Source: Pseudomonas sp. NFIX28 (lineage in GTDB: Bacteria; Pseudomonadota; Gammaproteobacteria; Pseudomonadales; Pseudomonadaceae). From it: DNA of 64,000 nucleotides. The position numbers were made by a program, and so were the translations under genes. The notes beneath the pieces were generated by a model. The model did not search any database, was not told the origin of the DNA, and was given only the letters and a program-made list of their open reading frames with translations. The stretch's first letter is position 1. Each line of letters opens with the position of its first letter. Positions 5,821 through 45,226 of the stretch are shown one piece after another. The stretch spans positions 1 to 64,000 of the forward strand of contig NZ_FNPW01000002.1 of NCBI RefSeq assembly GCF_900107395.1, read 5' to 3'.

Positions 5821-7256
5821 TGAGCATGAATTTGGTAACGACGCTCTACCTGATCGCGTCGATCTGCTTTATCCAGGCCCTCAAGGGGCTGTCGCACCCA
5901 ACCACGTCGCGTCGCGGCAACCTGTTCGGCATGCTCGGCATGGCGCTGGCGATCGTCACCACCGTCGGCCTGGTGTTCAAGCTCGGCGCGGAACTGGCGA
6001 CTGTTGGCATCGGCTACGTGATCGTCGGCCTGCTGATTGGCGGCACCGCCGGTTCGATCATGGCCAAGCGCGTGGAAATGACCAAGATGCCGGAACTGGT
6101 GGCCTTCATGCACAGCATGATCGGCCTGGCAGCGGTGTTCATTGCCATCGCTGCCGTGGTGGAGCCGCAGTCCCTGGGTATCGTCAAGCAGCTGGGCGAT
6201 GCGATTCCAGCCGGTAACCGCCTGGAGCTGTTCCTCGGCGCGGCCATCGGTGCCATTACCTTCTCCGGTTCGGTGATCGCCTTCGGCAAGCTGTCGGGCA
6301 AGTACAAGTTCCGCCTGTTCCAGGGCGCACCAGTACAGTTCGGCGGCCAGCACAAGCTGAACCTGATTCTCGGCCTGGCAACCCTGGGCCTGGGCGTGAC
6401 CTTCATGCTCACCGGCAACCTCGGCGCTTTCGCCCTGATGCTGGTGCTGGCCTTCGTGCTGGGCGTGCTGATCATCATCCCGATCGGCGGTGCCGACATG
6501 CCGGTGGTGGTGTCGATGCTTAACAGCTATTCGGGCTGGGCAGCGGCGGGGATCGGCTTCTCGCTGAACAACTCGATGCTGATCATCGCCGGCTCCCTGG
6601 TGGGTTCGTCCGGTGCAATCCTGTCCTACATCATGTGCAAGGCGATGAACCGCTCGTTCTTCAACGTATTGCTTGGCGGCTTCGGCAACACTGCCGACGC
6701 TGGCGGCCCGGCAGGCGCGCAAGAGGCTCGTCCGGTGAAGTCCGGCTCGGCCGACGACGCGACCTTCCTACTGACCAACGCCGACACCGTGATCATCGTT
6801 CCAGGCTATGGCCTGGCGGTGGCTCGGGCACAGCACGCGCTGAAAGAGCTGACCGAAAAGCTGACCCACCACGGTGTGACCGTGAAGTATGCGATCCACC
6901 CGGTAGCAGGGCGCATGCCCGGCCACATGAACGTACTGCTGGCCGAGGCCGAGGTGCCGTACGACCAGGTGTTCGAGATGGAAGACATCAACTCCGAGTT
7001 CGGCCAGGCCGACGTGGTGCTGGTGCTCGGCGCCAACGACGTGGTCAACCCGGCGGCGAAGAACGATCCGAAATCGCCGATCGCCGGCATGCCGATTCTC
7101 GAGGCGTTCAAGGCCAAGACCATCATCGTCAACAAGCGCTCGATGGCCAGCGGTTATGCCGGCCTGGACAACGAACTGTTCTACCTGGACAAGACCATGA
7201 TGGTGTTTGGCGACGCCAAGAAAGTCATCGAAGACATGGTCAAAGCCGTCGAGTAA
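5820..7256 (+). CDS. pntB: NAD(P) transhydrogenase beta subunit
   Basis: 478 aa, full length. The N-terminal half is a string of membrane helices forming the proton channel with PntAB. The C-terminal dIII domain binds NADP(H); VIIVPGYGLAVARAQHA and the later VLGANDVVNPAA and NKRSMASGYAGLDNELFY are characteristic. The start overlaps the pntAB stop. It catalyses NADPH formation coupled to proton entry at the inner membrane. The operon ends at the terminator immediately downstream. Confidence 0.96.
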   Translation: MSMNLVTTLYLIASICFIQALKGLSHPTTSRRGNLFGMLGMALAIVTTVGLVFKLGAELATVGIGYVIVGLLIGGTAGSIMAKRVEMTKMPELVAFMHSMIGLAAVFIAIAAVVEPQSLGIVKQLGDAIPAGNRLELFLGAAIGAITFSGSVIAFGKLSGKYKFRLFQGAPVQFGGQHKLNLILGLATLGLGVTFMLTGNLGAFALMLVLAFVLGVLIIIPIGGADMPVVVSMLNSYSGWAAAGIGFSLNNSMLIIAGSLVGSSGAILSYIMCKAMNRSFFNVLLGGFGNTADAGGPAGAQEARPVKSGSADDATFLLTNADTVIIVPGYGLAVARAQHALKELTEKLTHHGVTVKYAIHPVAGRMPGHMNVLLAEAEVPYDQVFEMEDINSEFGQADVVLVLGANDVVNPAAKNDPKSPIAGMPILEAFKAKTIIVNKRSMASGYAGLDNELFYLDKTMMVFGDAKKVIEDMVKAVE

Positions 7257-8930: not shown

Positions 8931-9249
8931 TGGGTACAGTCGGGGGCTGGCACAAGAACAGTTGCGCCAGCTCATCGATACCCCTCAAGCAGCTTTCAAA
9001 AACTGTACTACTGTACCGGTCTTTTAACCCCTAAAACGCTGGTCACTTTCGACAAAACACCTCGAAACGCACCTAAATGGTGCTGACAGGTACAGTTGCA
9101 TCATTTCCGAACAGTACAGCACCTATAAACAGTTAACTGGTCCCTCACAATACAGATGAACTGTATCTACAGAGACTGGCGCGAGAGGAGGATCATGGGC
9201 ACCAGTTAAACCACTACCTAATCCCGCCACAAGCGGAAGGATGCACACC
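8931..9249 (+). promoter_or_regulatory. Upstream region of the first DUF1127 gene with repeated GTACAG sites
   Basis: There is no gene apart from a four-codon frame. GTACAG or its complement CTGTAC occurs at 8934, 9003, 9011, 9090 and 9114, and the variant pair ATACAG (9150-9155)/CTGTAT (9161-9166) forms an inverted repeat. CTGTACCGGT (9011-9020) recurs in opposite orientation at 9613-9622 before the second DUF1127 gene. Such clustered dyads resemble binding sites of GntR/MocR-type regulators, although no such regulator gene is nearby. At 9195-9209 ATG GGC ACC AGT TAA follows a perfect GAGGAGG. Confidence 0.55.
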
Positions 9250-9465
9250 ATGGAACGTACACTCAGTTCCGAACTGTTCTTCGAAGACAAAGCTGCAAAA
9301 ACCCAGGCTTCCCTGCCTCTGCGCGTTCTCGCCAACCTGATGCTGTGGCAGCGCCGCATCTCCAGCCGCCACCAACTGGCTCGCCTGGATTCGCGTCTGC
9401 TGGCTGACGCAGGTATCAGCGAAGCTCAACGCTACGAAGAGCTGAGCAAGCCGTTCTGGCGCTAA
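9250..9465 (+). CDS. DUF1127 small protein (YjiS-like), copy 1
   Basis: 71 aa. The ATG at 9250 is chosen because AAGGA ends 8 bp upstream; an ATG at 9241 would abut that ribosome binding site. The C-terminal half is the DUF1127 signature: WQRRISSRHQLARLDSRLLAD, then AGIS and a terminal KPFWR. Such arginine-rich micro-proteins are common in proteobacteria. Some have been linked to phosphate/carbon control or RNA-related regulation, but the role of this one is unknown. Its paralogue lies 278 bp downstream; each has its own GTACAG-rich upstream region. Confidence 0.82.
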   Translation: MERTLSSELFFEDKAAKTQASLPLRVLANLMLWQRRISSRHQLARLDSRLLADAGISEAQRYEELSKPFWR

Positions 9466-9525: not shown

Positions 9526-9556
9526 AAACCCGTCGCGGGCAACCGCGACGGGTTTT
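9526..9556 (+). terminator. Terminator after DUF1127 copy 1
   Basis: A perfect 13-bp stem, AAACCCGTCGCGG (9526-9538), pairs with its complement at 9543-9555 across a GCAA tetraloop, followed by TTTTGTCGTTTT. Strong intrinsic terminator. Confidence 0.92.
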
Positions 9557-9591
9557 GTCGTTTTGGCAGTCCGGCAACCCAAGATTTAGCC

Positions 9592-9690
9592 GTACAGAAA
9601 GGTTCAAGCATGACCGGTACAGTTTTAATATAAATACAACTGAACCAGTACAATTTGACCCTGGTGTATCTGTATACGCCGCTGTACGAG
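9592..9690 (+). promoter_or_regulatory. GTACAG-type sites upstream of DUF1127 copy 2
   Basis: GTACAG occurs at 9592-9597 and inside ACCGGTACAGT (9613-9623), GTACAA at 9648, CTGTAT at 9670 and CTGTAC at 9682-9687. The spacing and the shared ten-mer with 9011-9020 suggest that one regulator controls both DUF1127 genes. Confidence 0.5.
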
Positions 9691-9743: not shown

Positions 9744-9953
9744 ATGAACCACATACCAGGACGTATCGCACCTCTAACCTTTTCCCATCCTCAGATTAGC
9801 GCATGGCAACGCCTGTACCGCGCCTTGTGTCAGATGCACCAGAACGCCCGAACACGCCGTGTGCTGGCGGGGCTCAACGATCAGCAATTGTCCGACGTTG
9901 GCATCAGCCACAGCGATCGCATGGCGGAACTGGAAAAGCCCTTCTGGCGCTAG
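9744..9953 (+). CDS. DUF1127 small protein (YjiS-like), copy 2
   Basis: 69 aa from the ATG at 9744, preceded by AAAGGA 7 bp upstream; a longer in-frame extension would run through the previous terminator. The core WQRLYRALCQMHQNARTRRVL, then GISHSDRMAELEKPFWR, matches copy 1, with the same terminal KPFWR. Function unknown. No terminator separates it from the structured leader and DUF2388 genes downstream, so read-through into them is possible. Confidence 0.82.
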   Translation: MNHIPGRIAPLTFSHPQISAWQRLYRALCQMHQNARTRRVLAGLNDQQLSDVGISHSDRMAELEKPFWR

Positions 9954-9985
9954 TTCGTCCCCAGACAGCAGAAGAGGGCTATTCG

Positions 9986-10097
9986 AACAGATAGGGTGGG
10001 CCTAATATCCTGTAGCGTGTAGCGATATTCCTGATGGGGCGCCTGATTCTGCCCCGCAGTGGCTACCCGGTGCCCACTCAGCACCACCCTATCTGTT
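9986..10097 (+). promoter_or_regulatory. Cloverleaf-like structured leader before the DUF2388 genes
   Basis: AACAGATAGGGTGG (9986-9999) and CCACCCTATCTGTT (10084-10097) are perfect 14-bp complements. Three local stems lie between them: AATATC/GATATT (10004-10009 with 10024-10029), GGGGC/GCCCC (10036-10040 with 10051-10055) and AGTGG/CCACT (10058-10062 with 10074-10078). Together they form a four-way junction ending 3 nt before the AAGGAG of the next gene. The element could be a regulatory RNA leader; a small palindromic mobile element is the alternative. Confidence 0.55.
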
Positions 10098-10115
10098 ATC
10101 AAGGAGTTTTTACCT

Positions 10116-10433
10116 ATGTCCCGTCTTCGCCTGCTCAGCGCTGCTGCCTTGCTGGCCTTGGCCTCCAATGCCCACGCCTCCAGCTTTATCGTTACCACCG
10201 ATGCGCTAGTCGGTGCGCTCAAAGCCACTTCCGATGCAACTTCCGACGTCACATCCTCGCTTCGCGACAATAAAATCGTGCGCGCCGCTCGTGACGACGC
10301 CGCCAGCTTTGTCGCCACCGAAGGCGCCATTCGCGGTGTGAAACTGGAAAGCGCGTTTGACCATATCCGCCAACAGTTGCCACAACTGAGCGCTACCGAC
10401 GCCCAGCTCGCTCAGGCCATCCTGACGATCTGA
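10116..10433 (+). CDS. DUF2388 secreted protein, copy 1 of 3
   Basis: 105 aa. The ATG at 10116 is supported by AAGGAG 9 bp upstream. A signal peptide (about residues 1-22, LLSAAALLALASNAHA) is followed by a mature domain with the family core SLRDNKIVRAARDDAASFVA, then IRGVKLESAF. The family (TIGR02448/DUF2388) is about 100 aa, largely restricted to pseudomonads, often in tandem, and of unknown function. It probably acts in the periplasm or is secreted. First gene of a tandem of three, followed by a coupled DUF4105 gene. Confidence 0.88.
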   Translation: MSRLRLLSAAALLALASNAHASSFIVTTDALVGALKATSDATSDVTSSLRDNKIVRAARDDAASFVATEGAIRGVKLESAFDHIRQQLPQLSATDAQLAQAILTI

Positions 10434-10876: not shown

Positions 10877-11197
10877 ATGCGTAGCCCGCTGATTGCTGCC
10901 ACCCTTGGCCTGTTGCTGTTGGCCGATGTGGCCCAGGCACAAACCCTGGTAGCCACCAGTAACATCATCGTTCGAGCCTTTGAGCGCACCATCGATTTCA
11001 CCTCGGACACCACCACCTCCATCCGCGACTCGAAAATCGTACGGGCCGCGCATGACGATGCCGCCAGTTTTGTCGCCAGCGATGGCGGCATTCGTGGTGT
11101 CCAGCTGGAAGCCGCTTTCGATACCTTGCGTAACCGCGTGCCGGAAGCCCGCGACGCCAGTGACCAGGTGCTCGCCGAAGCCATCCTCGCATTGTGA
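10877..11197 (+). CDS. DUF2388 secreted protein, copy 3 of 3
   Basis: 106 aa with signal peptide (about 1-21, LGLLLLADVAQA) and the core SIRDSKIVRAAHDDAASFVA, then IRGVQLEAAF, closest to copy 1. It lies 27 bp after copy 2. Its TGA stop overlaps the GTG start of the next gene (GTGA), so the downstream HELTH/DUF4105 protein is translationally coupled to it. That coupling suggests a shared envelope process. Function unknown. Confidence 0.87.
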   Translation: MRSPLIAATLGLLLLADVAQAQTLVATSNIIVRAFERTIDFTSDTTTSIRDSKIVRAAHDDAASFVASDGGIRGVQLEAAFDTLRNRVPEARDASDQVLAEAILAL

Positions 11198-13155
11198 GGC
11201 CGCTCGCTGCCTGGCTGCTGGGCGCAGCGCTGTTACTCCTGGGCAACAGCGCTCAGGCCGGCTTGCAACTGCGGCTCAAGGCCGAAGGCTTGAGCCCGCA
11301 GCAACAGCACGCCACCCAGGCGCTGCTGGATGAGGCGATGCAAGCGCTACCGCCGCGCTTCATCGAGCAACTGGACCGTCGCATCGACGTCGGCTGGACC
11401 GACAACATGCCTCATAACGCCTATGGCCAGGCATCGCTGGTCGACGAGCTCGACCTGAATCGCAAACTGCTGGCCAGCCTCGCCGACGGCAGCGCGGCCA
11501 CCCAGAAAACCCATCGCCCTCATGGCACCGTGCGCCGGGAAATGCTCGCCACCGTGCTGCATGAACTCACCCATATCTATGACCGCTCGCGCCTGTGGTC
11601 GGGCGCCGAGCGCACGTTAATCCAGCGTTGCAGCCGCCAGAACAGCGCCTCGGGCCTGATCGGGCTGCCGGACCAGTGCCGTGGCCAGACTGCGCGCCGC
11701 TTCACCCTCAGCGACGACCCGCGCCTGCTCGACCTCGCCGGCTGGCCGCAATACGTCGGCCGCCGCGGCGAACGCGAGCAATACAACCGCCAGGTCGCCC
11801 GCAGCCCGGATATCTACGAAACGACCAACCCGAAAGAGTTCGTCGCGGTAAACATGGAGTATTTCCTCCTCGACCCGAGCTACGCCTGCCGGCGCCCGGC
11901 GCTTTACCGCTATTACCAGGAACACTTCGGCTGGGCGCCGAAGGCCAAGGACACGTGTGCCCAGTCCTTTGCCTTCCTCAACGCCGGCAATGACTTCGCC
12001 AAGCAGCCGCTGGGCAAGGTCGACCCGGAACGGGTCTATGCCGTGGATTACCTGCTGGCCGAAGCCAACCAGAATTGGGTCAGCCGCTGGGGGCACAGCA
12101 TGCTGCGCCTGGTGATCTGCGCACCTGGCCGGCCGCGCGGGCCGGATTGCCGGTTGGACCTGGACCAGCACCTGGTGCTGTCCTACCGGGCCTTTGTCGG
12201 CGACGTGCAGCTGTCGAGCTGGGACGGCCTGGTCGGCAAATACCCGTCCCGCCTGTTTATCCTGCCGCTGGCCCAGGTCATCGACGAATACACCAAGACC
12301 GAGTTGCGCAGCCTGGCCTCGGTGCCGCTGAAGCTGTCGCGCAGCGAGATCGAAGAAGTGGTCGAGCGCGCGGCCGAGATGCATTGGAGCTACGACGGCA
12401 ACTATTACTTCCTGTCCAACAACTGCGCCGTGGAAAGCCTGAAGCTGCTGCGCAGTGGCAGCAACAATGCCCAGTTCACCGGGCTGGACAGCATCATGCC
12501 CAATGGCTTGCTGGAAGTGCTCAAGGGCCGTGGCCTGGCCGACACCAGCGTGCTGGACGATCCTCGCGAAGCGTTGCGCCTGGGGTATCGCTTCGACTCC
12601 TTCCGCGACCGTTACCAGGCGATGTTCGAGGTGCTGAAAAAGCACCTGCCGATCAAGCAGAACAGCGTGGAAGACTGGCTGTCCCTGAGTGCCGCGCAGC
12701 GTCGCCAGTGGTTCGACCAGGCGGACCTGCGCACCAGCGCGGCCTTGCTGCTGCTCGAACAGGCGAGCTTCCGGCGTCAGCTGCTGCTGGCCCAGGATGA
12801 GGTCAAGCAGCGGTATCTGGGGGCTCGCGAGCTGCAGAACGGCGGCATGGACAAGGCCAACAAGACCCTGCAGGAAATCCTCGCCAGCAGCGGTTTCCTC
12901 AGTCGTCCGGCCGAATTGCTCGGTAGCAGCGGGTATGGCTTGCCGCAGCCGGGCGAATGGCAACGCCTGGAAGCGGAAAGCAGCCTGCGCCAGAAACAGT
13001 TGCAGGCCCTGACCGGCGACCTGGACAAGGAGGTGCGGGCCTTGCTGGAACCGAGCCGCGCCGCCGAAATCGCCGCCAACGAGGCCAACCTGAAACAGCT
13101 CGGCGAACACCTGCGGGCCTTGCACAAGGCGGCGGGCGGGCTGGAGTTGCCGTAA
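11194..13155 (+). CDS. DUF4105 protein with N-terminal HELTH metallopeptidase-like domain
   Basis: 653 aa, GTG start overlapping the DUF2388 stop. A signal peptide (about 1-22) is followed by an N-terminal domain with the zinc motif HELTH (123-127) and a candidate third ligand in NPKEFVAVN (E215). The DUF4105 domain follows, with WGHSMLRL (H301) and SNNCAVESLK (C411), spaced like the His and Cys of permuted NlpC/P60- or LRAT-like thiol hydrolases. The C-terminus (about 480-653) is helical and charged. Location is probably periplasmic. A dual hydrolase acting on proteins or envelope material is possible, but no substrate is known. Coupling to three DUF2388 genes is the strongest context. Confidence 0.85.
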   Translation: MRPLAAWLLGAALLLLGNSAQAGLQLRLKAEGLSPQQQHATQALLDEAMQALPPRFIEQLDRRIDVGWTDNMPHNAYGQASLVDELDLNRKLLASLADGSAATQKTHRPHGTVRREMLATVLHELTHIYDRSRLWSGAERTLIQRCSRQNSASGLIGLPDQCRGQTARRFTLSDDPRLLDLAGWPQYVGRRGEREQYNRQVARSPDIYETTNPKEFVAVNMEYFLLDPSYACRRPALYRYYQEHFGWAPKAKDTCAQSFAFLNAGNDFAKQPLGKVDPERVYAVDYLLAEANQNWVSRWGHSMLRLVICAPGRPRGPDCRLDLDQHLVLSYRAFVGDVQLSSWDGLVGKYPSRLFILPLAQVIDEYTKTELRSLASVPLKLSRSEIEEVVERAAEMHWSYDGNYYFLSNNCAVESLKLLRSGSNNAQFTGLDSIMPNGLLEVLKGRGLADTSVLDDPREALRLGYRFDSFRDRYQAMFEVLKKHLPIKQNSVEDWLSLSAAQRRQWFDQADLRTSAALLLLEQASFRRQLLLAQDEVKQRYLGARELQNGGMDKANKTLQEILASSGFLSRPAELLGSSGYGLPQPGEWQRLEAESSLRQKQLQALTGDLDKEVRALLEPSRAAEIAANEANLKQLGEHLRALHKAAGGLELP

Positions 13156-24162: not shown

Positions 24163-24170
24163 GGTTTTTT

Positions 24171-24221
24171 CGCGGGCAAGCCTAGCTCCTACGGTCTTGG
24201 TAGGAGCGAGGCTTGCCCGCG
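24171..24221. repeat. REP palindrome pair (family A)
   Basis: CGCGGGCAAGCCTAGCTCCTAC (24171-24192) and GTAGGAGCGAGGCTTGCCCGCG (24200-24221) form a 22-bp inverted repeat with one mismatch and a 7-nt loop. It lies between the convergent lipoprotein and SpmAB-like genes and may protect or end both transcripts. Confidence 0.88.
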
Positions 24222-24235
24222 AACCGCTCCAACCC

Positions 24236-27003: not shown

Positions 27004-27734
27004 ATCATTACCCTTACTTCAGTTGGACTCGGGCTGATGCGCGAACTGGAACGCTCAATGGCGGAAAAGTCTGTGCATCGGCCCCCGTATAAGGTCACCC
27101 CGAGCGAGTATTTACGGCTCTCTGCGGGCGAAAAAAGGCGCAACTATTCCGACGCAAGGGGAGCGCGTCTAATGCCGTAAACGCCTACCCTATGCCGAAT
27201 CGGCATGAGTTTTTATAAACGAAACGGGCGTCCCAACCGGTTCGAATGCGACATTTCGGCCCGGTCATCTACCGTGAAACGGCCATTTCAGGCGGCATTC
27301 AGCGCTTTTGAGAGGGTTCGAAATGACCCTTGAAAGAAGGGAAAGTTCTTACGTTAGAACCAGAAAACCCATCTGGAAAAAGACAAAAGTTTCTCGATGT
27401 ACGGTCGCAAAGAAATACCGTGAAACGGTTAGGCCACGCATCTTGGGAATATTTGTCGCGCCCCGCCTGAAGAAAGCAGGCCAGCGCTCTGCCACAACGG
27501 TTTGTGACAGACAAACACGACGCAAGTCGCCAAGCCTGAACGGCTGGCGAGCTTGCGTCGCAGTTTCCTGACCCGGCCCTTGCGGAGGCACTCCCTGTAC
27601 CCCTAGGTCACTCCGATCCAATTCGATCAGAACGTCCCGGCCCCCTGGTCATGCGCTGCCCCTCCTCGGGGCCGTGCAACGGAAAGCAGGCCCGGGGGCG
27701 CTTGCTTTCCATGATCGAACCTTGCGAACCGCGT
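27004..27734. other. Long non-coding region with several dyads between gltP and the Ivy gene
   Basis: 730 bp without a convincing gene. It holds the gltP promoter region and four dyads: ATGCCGA/TCGGCAT around one A (27192-27206), GTTCT/AGAAC (27345-27360), GTTTGT/ACAAAC (27500-27516), and a long bulged hairpin (27519-27559, arms beginning GACGCAAG and ending CTTGCGTC). An 87-codon frame (27308-27571) spans the last three but has atypical codon use and no ribosome binding site. A small RNA or transcription boundary is possible near 27500-27560. Confidence 0.5.
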
Positions 27735-40554: not shown

Positions 40555-40565
40555 AAGACATACGC

Positions 40566-40696
40566 AAAACTGCCTGTGGGGTGATCAGGCAAGGCAAAAA
40601 CTGGCGGGAACGGCTGGGGTCGCATTCGACTTAGGGGCCTAAATGAGCATTTCCCGCCCGTTTTTAACGCAACATGATCGCGCCACAGGCAGTTTT
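40566..40696. repeat. 131-bp nested palindromic element between engB and ErsA
   Basis: Outer arms AAAACTGCCTGTGG (40566-40579) and CCACAGGCAGTTTT (40683-40696) are perfect 14-bp complements. Inner arms AAAAACTGGCGGGAA (40596-40610) and TTCCCGCCCGTTTTT (40651-40665) pair with one mismatch; the inner stem ends in TTTTT and could terminate engB. The TGATC words at 40581 and 40675 are partially symmetrical too. The unit may be a bidirectional terminator or a MITE-like element. Confidence 0.6.
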
Positions 40697-40701
40697 GGGG
40701 C

Positions 40702-40833
40702 AAAAAAAACCCCGGACTTCGTATGGGGAGGAGAAGTTCGGGGTCCAAGTTCCGGACCGCTAGGGCGGGGTCCAGATATCTGCCAACACTTAACACAACA
40801 TAGGAGCATCGAAGGGCTTCACCAGCCATTCAG
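40702..40833 (-). ncRNA. ersA: Small regulatory RNA ErsA
   Basis: About 131 nt on the minus strand in the engB-polA intergenic space, the locus and length of ErsA in P. aeruginosa. It ends in a strong terminator: CCCCGAACTTC pairs with GAAGTCCGGGG, followed by TTTTTTTT (40709-40702). The loop contains CTCCTCCCC, a C-rich unpaired stretch suited to base pair with ribosome binding sites. A second stem, GACC...GGTC, precedes it. ErsA is Hfq-dependent, envelope-stress induced, and in P. aeruginosa targets algC, oprD and amrZ. The 5' end is predicted from the promoter, so it is approximate. Confidence 0.85.
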
Positions 40834-45151: not shown

Positions 45152-45157
45152 AAGCCT

Positions 45158-45210
45158 CGCGGGCAAGCCTCGCTCCTACAAATCCCCTGTAGGAGCGAGG
45201 CTTGCCCGCG
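45158..45210. repeat. REP palindrome pair (family A, perfect)
   Basis: CGCGGGCAAGCCTCGCTCCTAC (45158-45179) and its exact complement (45189-45210) enclose nine bases. The unit lies between the convergent thrB and znuA genes and can fold in either transcript. Confidence 0.92.
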
Positions 45211-45226
45211 ATAGCGCCAGCAGCCG

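Follow-up and report, generated by a model that had tools for sequence, protein, structure and literature searches.

Genes and features around the DUF2388 leader

The window, by which we mean the whole 64,000-nucleotide stretch of Pseudomonas sp. NFIX28 DNA that was analysed, carries two DUF1127 genes followed by the first of three DUF2388 genes. A long inverted repeat, designated P1, lies in the leader between the second DUF1127 gene and the first DUF2388 gene. The features of this region are as follows.

9241-9465 (+), DUF1127 gene 1, an open reading frame (Pfam DUF1127, E = 2.9e-9)
9526-9563 (+), terminator-like hairpin 3′ of DUF1127 gene 1, a 12-bp perfect stem and then a T-rich stretch (terminator scan and inverted-repeat listing)
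9744-9953 (+), DUF1127 gene 2, directly 5′ of the leader (Pfam DUF1127, E = 1.1e-9)
9979-9984 (+), weak candidate -35-like element, CTATTC, 18 bp before the -10
9986-9999 (+), P1 5′ arm, AACAGATAGGGTGG, within the predicted promoter spacer and identical in the relative L196
10003-10008 (+), predicted -10 hexamer, TAATAT (TANNAT in 100 of 100 aligned matches of the model R1, described below)
10014-10017 (+), predicted transcription start, placed 6 to 9 nt after the -10 from the position of the latter
10017-10025 (+), conserved block 1, consensus ACGTGGCGA, window copy GTGTAGCGA (leader alignment)
10019-10023 and 10062-10066 (+), P2, GTAGC/GCTAC, from the minimum-energy fold and identical in L196
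10036-10040 and 10051-10055 (+), P3, GGGGC/GCCCC, which is GGGAC/GTCCC in L196
10039-10046 (+), conserved block 2, consensus GCGTCTGA, window copy GCGCCTGA (leader alignment)
10084-10097 (+), P1 3′ arm, CCACCCTATCTGTT, ending 3 nt 5′ of the Shine-Dalgarno sequence
10101-10106 (+), Shine-Dalgarno sequence, AAGGAG, read from the sequence
10116-10433 (+), DUF2388 gene 1, the first of three (Pfam DUF2388, E = 2.3e-30)

The hairpin at 9526 to 9563 was also called on the opposite strand. Downstream of the leader, at 11194 to 13155 (+), a 653-amino-acid frame with DUF7844 and Lnb_N domains has a GTG start that overlaps the stop codon of the third DUF2388 gene, an arrangement that suggests translational coupling and a single operon. 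Boxes of sequence GTACAGTT flank the DUF1127 genes at 9001 to 9008 (-), 9090 to 9097 (+) and 9617 to 9624 (+), and a fourth is present at 6333; four in the window compares with an expected 0.35. Boxes judged similar by eye were seen 5′ of a number of homologous leaders, and these boxes are possibly operator sites for some regulator. In the literature, PP_3743, a DUF2388 gene, is listed as raised in an alr mutant of P. putida (PMC6034422) and DUF2388 is named in gene-cluster tables (PMC11963402); the passages concerned in these two papers make no mention of a leader of DUF2388 genes.

The inverted repeat and its predicted fold

The initial annotation had described a four-helix, cloverleaf-like leader in which a perfect 14-bp closing stem encloses three further perfect stems of 6, 5 and 5 bp and ends 3 nt before AAGGAG. 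The closing stem was confirmed (9986 to 9999 with 10084 to 10097, 84 nt between the arms), as was the position of its base 3 nt before the AAGGAG at 10101. The 112-nt stretch had a predicted fold of -52.2 kcal/mol (z = -4.86), with 0 of 200 shuffled sequences as good, and with flanks included (171 nt) z was -2.78 and 2 of 200 shuffles were as good. Four perfect repeats of at least 14 bp with a loop of 20 to 120 nt were detected in the window, whereas 40 first-order Markov sequences contained 0.1 on average. These results indicated that the P1 repeat is not a product of chance, yet it is not the sole repeat of this kind in the window.

The cloverleaf itself was not borne out. The minimum-energy fold was a single long closed structure with P1 closing it and P2 placed around a P3 hairpin. 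Complementary strings are present as AATATC (10004-10009)/GATATT (10024-10029), GGGGC (10036-10040)/GCCCC (10051-10055) and AGTGG (10058-10062)/CCACT (10074-10078), and we take these three pairs to be the 6-, 5- and 5-bp stems of the initial description, but the 6-bp helix and the AGTGG/CCACT helix were absent from the minimum-energy fold. The 6-bp helix overlaps the -10 hexamer.

The stretch had been distinguished from a simple terminator and from a REP-type repeat, and both distinctions were upheld. A strict scan of 9954 to 10115 detected no terminator-like hairpin between DUF1127 gene 2 and DUF2388, and the general terminator listing was also empty there. A search of the strain's own genome matched the full length at the site itself only, the six other matches at E <= 10 each spanning 15 to 19 nt, and the leader sequence had no match in plasmid or phage collections. 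REP and MITE palindromes share with this leader a perfect intergenic inverted repeat, whereas here there is a single genomic copy; a mobile palindrome was rejected because no second genomic copy was found and the homologues stand before the same gene. The expectation that no named RNA element would apply was likewise correct for Rfam, in which no match was found here at the gathering score or at E <= 5, nor any in 10 relatives.

Other structured elements were noted elsewhere in the window. Rfam matches were detected at 40694 to 40809 (-), to the ErsA/Pseudomon-1 small RNA (RF01719, 131.6 bits), and at 27561 to 27651 (-), to the ivy-DE cis-regulatory RNA motif (RF02999, 94.6 bits). An inverted repeat with 23-nt arms (40565-40587 and 40675-40697) adjoins ErsA/Pseudomon-1 with a 4-nt overlap. 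Two palindromes that closely resemble each other, presumably REP-like and with arms of 24 nt, are located at 24169 to 24223 and 45157 to 45211, and a palindrome cluster with 13- to 15-nt arms occupies 356 to 428.

Assembly of homologous leaders

A scan that used the DUF2388 protein as query yielded 36 loci, and a common upstream block was recognised in 20 of them. A sequence-only model, R1, was made from 22 sequences, comprising the window, locus L008 and those 20 loci. The 16 loci left out were those in which the TANNAT/ACGTGGCGA block was unrecognised (L022, L028, L029, L031, L032, L034 to L036, L038 and L040 to L045) together with L047, which was excluded uninspected; several of the 16 have other -10-like boxes as judged by eye. 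With a permissive cut-off of E <= 1, under which weak matches also pass, R1 matched in 366 of the 398 genomes searched within the genus. Thirty-nine genomes with weaker matches were searched again, and the best match was at E <= 0.002 in each; five second block matches (L208 to L212) were found in these 39 genomes, with L208 lying inside a long open frame. Apart from these five, the fetched R1 places adjoin, on its 5′ side, a frame with a DUF2388 motif.

Leaders were taken from 100 places by coordinate among the matches listed (E to ~1.4e-10) and from the 30 loci given. A total of 191 loci entered the analysis and gave 179 distinct leaders, 10 identical leaders having been merged and two lost (L202, with a wrong start, and L221, which was too short). 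The tree-based covariation and folding z analyses used the first 145 of these. The leader filter demanded TANNAT, so the 145-leader set and the class counts are partly a matter of construction. The 100 aligned R1 matches were obtained without this filter, but they are shaped by R1, which itself derives from sequences picked by the motif.

A leader was termed DUF1127 adjacent when a DUF1127 gene ends at most 200 nt from the DUF2388 start. Adjacency was scored in three ways, the second of which missed known cases, and the third scoring was used; two leaders for which the upstream sequence is too short, L026 and L187, were placed among the 79 non-adjacent ones. One clade, referred to by its arms as TTAATATC/TTAAGATC, was drawn from 43 leaders with the TTAATATC base. 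Four of these (L017, L195, L205 and L207, all non-adjacent and with longest stems of 3 to 5) were removed by hand as another group, leaving 39. Named members are L037 (P. simiae) and L039 (P. cedrina), the latter without the stem.

A widely conserved promoter-like core

The best-conserved feature of the 179 distinct homologous leaders was a -10-like hexamer. In the 100 aligned R1 matches, its successive positions were T (100), A (100), A (99, with one C), T (93, with six G and one A), A (100) and T (100); fixed ends and a variable middle are typical of a -10 hexamer. The sigma-70 -10 pattern, with positions 1, 2 and 6 fixed, was found at 10003 to 10008. TANNAT was present in both DUF1127-adjacent and non-adjacent leaders, partly because of the TANNAT filter. 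On the 3′ side of the hexamer there are ~9 variable nucleotides and then ACGTGGCGA, and CGTCTGA or a variant was located 22 nt from the GTG of ACGTGGCGA in 134 of 138 leaders. The upstream CTATTC is a poor fit to TTGACA; its C and T were invariant in 22 aligned sequences. A consensus promoter scan listed no promoter in the region of 10003 to 10008, and we know of no AlgU/ECF or sigma-54 motif that fits blocks 1 and 2.

The DUF2388 genes are probably driven by a widely conserved sigma-70-type promoter with its -10 at 10003 to 10008. Given this position, transcription would probably start within the fold, at about 10014 to 10017, and mRNA made from the promoter itself would therefore lack the P1 5′ arm, which occupies the position of the predicted promoter spacer.

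A leader peptide starting at the GTG of block 1 was considered and set aside; with the DUF2388 ATG as reference, this GTG falls into each of the three frames (58, 77 and 25 of 160 leaders). The median open length was 77 codons in the GTG frame compared with 52 and 8 in the two others. No ribosome-binding site was seen by eye before the block 1 GTG, and some ATG is present 3′ of the -10 in 120 of 179 leaders.

Behaviour of P1 in related leaders

The spacer arm was compared with the 34-nt stretch 5′ of the Shine-Dalgarno sequence in each leader. The longest Watson-Crick run was 14 in both the window and L196, 9 to 11 in 22 of the 39 leaders of the TTAATATC/TTAAGATC clade, 7 in part of the P. mandelii (L013) group and mostly less elsewhere, and some leaders, such as L084 and L085, had almost no arm complementarity. 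In total, 155 of 179 leaders were without 8 or more contiguous pairs; homologous leaders lacking the stem, an observation that the initial annotation had itself named as counting against its reading, were thus found.

The closest relative found was L196 (genome G435), which has 85% identity over 421 nt; closer relatives were sought and none was found. Both P1 arms (14 of 14 pairs) and P2 are identical to those of the window, and P3 differs by a two-sided compensatory change (GGGAC/GTCCC compared with GGGGC/GCCCC). The AGTGG/CCACT strings of the window are AGTGG/CTACT in L196, and other loop bases and lengths differ. As L196 is without GATATT, the 6-bp helix is not kept. All positions from 9978 to the -10 are identical in L196, and hence promoter constraint alone could explain the conservation of the 5′ arm.

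Pairing between the arms was examined by swapping arms between leaders. Own arms paired at -13.12 kcal/mol and swapped arms at -11.04 kcal/mol (27 representatives below 70% identity, p = 5e-5). The signal was detected with 57, 27 and 11 clade representatives (p <5e-5, 5e-5 and 0.006, respectively) and also without the window (p <5e-5, 8e-4 and 0.04). A reversed-arm control gave p values of 0.02 and 0.04 with 57 representatives and 0.28 to 0.74 with 27 and 11, while a complemented-arm control gave 0.44 to 0.54. Swapping of the opposite-strand arms produced a weaker signal (p = 0.002, 0.005 and 0.009), and there was no signal when the segment after the predicted start was set against the same 3′ stretch (p = 0.94, 0.30 and 0.08 with 57, 27 and 11). 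Adjacent leaders alone had p values of <=5e-5 at three thresholds, and the signal was weaker in non-adjacent leaders (p = 0.005, 0.018 and 0.05).

Covariation, which had been proposed as support for an RNA, was not detected at any pair at significance against our own tree-based null in 145 leaders (best E = 2.1, with arms from separate clades partly out of register in the alignment). Within the 39 clade leaders, 93.0% of P1 cells were paired and three pairs showed two-sided changes; when P1 and P2 were scored jointly, 8 of 500 shuffles attained the covariation score and 5 of 500 the paired-cell share. In the 33 adjacent clade leaders, P1 was 95.7% paired, with 30 of 330 cells G-U and one two-sided pair, and shuffles reached the covariation score in 96 of 500 cases and the paired share in 44 of 500 (P1 and P2). 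RNAalifold picked P1 for these 33 leaders, along with P2 under RIBOSUM scoring, and for the 23 shorter of them, but not for all 39 clade leaders nor for the 10 longer adjacent ones alone. Of the clade members, 29 of the 33 adjacent ones and 2 of the 6 non-adjacent ones had P1 in their own minimum-energy fold, and the whole-leader folding z had a mean of -2.4 in 37 leaders of that type compared with -0.7 in 108 others.

With the arm swap, pairing relative to shuffles, RNAalifold and the tree-based null taken together, the evidence that P1 is a selected RNA helix is moderate. Of the original proposal of a regulatory RNA, what stands to this moderate degree is the behaviour of P1 as a + strand RNA helix in those lineages that carry it, from the arm swap, the G-U pairs and L196; the riboswitch-like multibranched leader is not supported.

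Association of P1 with a DUF1127 neighbour

A DUF1127 gene was adjacent in 100 of the 179 leaders. Stems of at least 8 contiguous Watson-Crick pairs, a threshold picked after the data had been seen, were detected in 24 of 100 adjacent and 0 of 79 other leaders, and stems of at least 7 in 37 adjacent and 6 other leaders; a stem of at least 8 was absent from 76 of the 100 adjacent leaders. Within the clade, 22 of 33 adjacent and 0 of 6 non-adjacent members had a stem of this length (Fisher p = 0.004; p = 0.005 for energies), the six non-adjacent members falling at five places in a 318-nt gene tree without support values. Pairing energy was lower with the neighbour in clade representatives at 90, 80 and 70% (p = 0.009, 0.016 and 0.003). 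Among leaders from outside the clade, the arms were paired in the minimum-energy fold no more often with the DUF1127 neighbour (25 of 67) than without it (31 of 73). On this distribution, the long stem is a lineage-restricted addition that is partly tied to the DUF1127 neighbour.

A strict terminator-like hairpin was present 5′ of the promoter in 53 of the 77 non-adjacent leaders with enough upstream sequence (4 expected from shuffles). Between DUF1127 and the ATG, such hairpins were found in 7 of 100 adjacent leaders (0.4 expected), over stretches whose lengths differ from those of the non-adjacent scan. None of the six non-adjacent clade members had a strict terminator upstream, so that read-through may occur there too; a laxer hairpin search, run without a control, detected some hairpin near a T-rich stretch in four of these and none in two.

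The same observations could mean that the promoter alone matters and that the inverted repeat arose incidentally, for instance when a single templated mutation made an imperfect palindrome perfect, and plays no part in RNA. Such an explanation would account for a widespread -10 with a patchy P1, for the absence of a significant pair against the tree-based null, for arm pairing being unlinked to the neighbour outside one clade and for the ease with which shuffles reached the covariation score on 33 leaders (96 of 500). It is less readily reconciled with an arm-swap signal that survives removal of the window, with 95.7% of P1 cells paired over those 33 leaders, with the link of P1 to DUF1127 adjacency or with the retention of 14 of 14 P1 pairs in L196 despite loop changes, although promoter constraint could hold the 5′ arm. 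We regard this explanation as possible, if rather doubtful.

A proposed role for P1 on read-through RNA

The combination that we put forward, tentatively and as quite possible, is of a widespread promoter overlaid by a lineage-restricted helix, P1, that forms only on read-through RNA. The leader stretch is probably not a sensor RNA; its fold, available only to longer messages arriving from upstream, would have the transcription start within it. RNA started at the promoter would begin past the P1 5′ arm, giving a leader with P2 and P3 only, and this short message would be more open. P1 would form only on RNA entering from upstream, most likely the unterminated message of DUF1127 gene 2. Read-through RNA with both P1 arms would have a closed leader with its base 3 nt before the Shine-Dalgarno sequence, so that the stretch on which the ribosome lands would be folded away and DUF2388 would be translated less, or differently, from this RNA. 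We infer the start site, the read-through and the effect on translation from the sequence.

The predicted costs of opening the leader were calculated for long and short RNAs. In the window, opening of -45 to -20 required 19.3 kcal/mol on the long RNA and 6.7 on the short one, and opening of -20 to +6 required 6.1 and 3.7, respectively; for the Shine-Dalgarno sequence, the values were 2.8 and 3.2. The mean long and short values for these three stretches were 14.3 and 8.8, 9.5 and 6.5, and 4.4 and 4.8 in the 24 leaders with P1; 9.5 and 8.3, 7.7 and 6.1, and 4.0 and 4.3 in the 76 adjacent leaders without P1; and 7.6 and 7.4, 6.6 and 6.3, and 4.0 and 4.1 in the 79 non-adjacent leaders. These predictions suggest that P1 would close the landing stretch on read-through RNA while the Shine-Dalgarno sequence itself would stay open.

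P1 on read-through RNA might otherwise protect or process the DUF1127 message, through 3′-end stability or as an RNase barrier, and have no part in the control of DUF2388 translation. This would fit the company that P1 keeps with the DUF1127 neighbour and a 5′ arm that begins 32 nt past the stop of DUF1127 gene 2; the stem, however, encloses a loop of 84 nt and lacks a T-run, and we consider this role improbable.

A classical cis-regulatory RNA or riboswitch, with a ligand or protein acting on a multibranched leader to control DUF2388, seems very improbable. Helices differ from clade to clade with no significant covarying pair, the 6-bp helix that overlaps the -10 is lost in L196, and Rfam gave no match even at E <= 5. 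A structured leader beside the Shine-Dalgarno sequence and two conserved blocks 3′ of the -10 are features that such an element would have. So is an 8-bp hairpin found in six related leaders (L021, L191, L197, L200, L215 and L217), where it joins the conserved blocks and lies 3′ of the predicted start; by hand count, 48 of its 48 cells are paired, with one two-sided compensatory change (G-C to A-U) in L217. Rfam cis-regulatory elements and riboswitches have a structured 5′ leader in common with this locus, whereas the conserved core here is promoter-like and the helices are not conserved in relatives.

That the two arms are paired operator sites of a DNA-looping regulator is scarcely credible: one arm does lie in the promoter spacer with the other inverted and ~86 to 111 bp downstream, but the centre-to-centre distances of stems of at least 9 pairs (86 to 90, 94, 97, 105 and 111) do not step by whole helical turns, the arm sequences change together between clades, and G-U-type pairs leave the DNA palindrome imperfect.

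Comparison with known leaders and implications

A promoter overlaid by a helix on read-through RNA has counterparts in phage. In the passage on T4 gene e, late promoters occupy the DNA that encodes the 5′ strand of an inhibitory helix, which forms on a longer RNA started upstream (PMC3014915). The passages concerned describe inhibitory helices for the gene e, soc, 49 and I-TevI leaders and, for gene e and I-TevI, place a promoter in the 5′ strand (PMC3014915, PMC2988022). The present locus would resemble gene e and I-TevI, as so described, in that DNA of the predicted promoter encodes the 5′ strand of a leader helix, with the start here predicted from the -10. In the T4 leaders as described there, the helix covers the Shine-Dalgarno sequence and/or the AUG, whereas P1 stops 3 nt before the Shine-Dalgarno sequence and lies over neither this sequence nor the start codon; with the Shine-Dalgarno sequence uncovered, the leader is not filed as a member of the T4 gene e type. 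The gene e effect was measured, according to the passage, and in a phage, whereas the present locus is on a bacterial chromosome and its effect is predicted. For seg43(25) in Aeromonas phage 25, a hairpin predicted to be very stable is described directly 5′ of an open ribosome-binding site (PMC2988022), and like P1 it stops just before an uncovered site; unlike the locus described here, with its predicted promoter, no internal promoter is named in that passage.

A fuller version of the proposal is a chromosomal isoform-switching leader, in which read-through RNA is folded at the standby region and promoter-started RNA is open, and in which the helix is kept only where a DUF1127 neighbour feeds it and decays when the neighbour is lost. 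This would place the logic of T4 gene e outside phages. We think this version unlikely as a whole, though by no means far-fetched.

The proposal, if correct, is also a caution for the reading of conspicuous leader folds: a promoter may lie within such a fold, in which case the main transcript is not the RNA that folds. Because the DUF1127 neighbour is naturally present beside some leaders and absent from others, the idea can be tested. If it is true, the DUF2388 gene would tell its own messages from those that run in from upstream, and the promoter DNA would be half of the switch.
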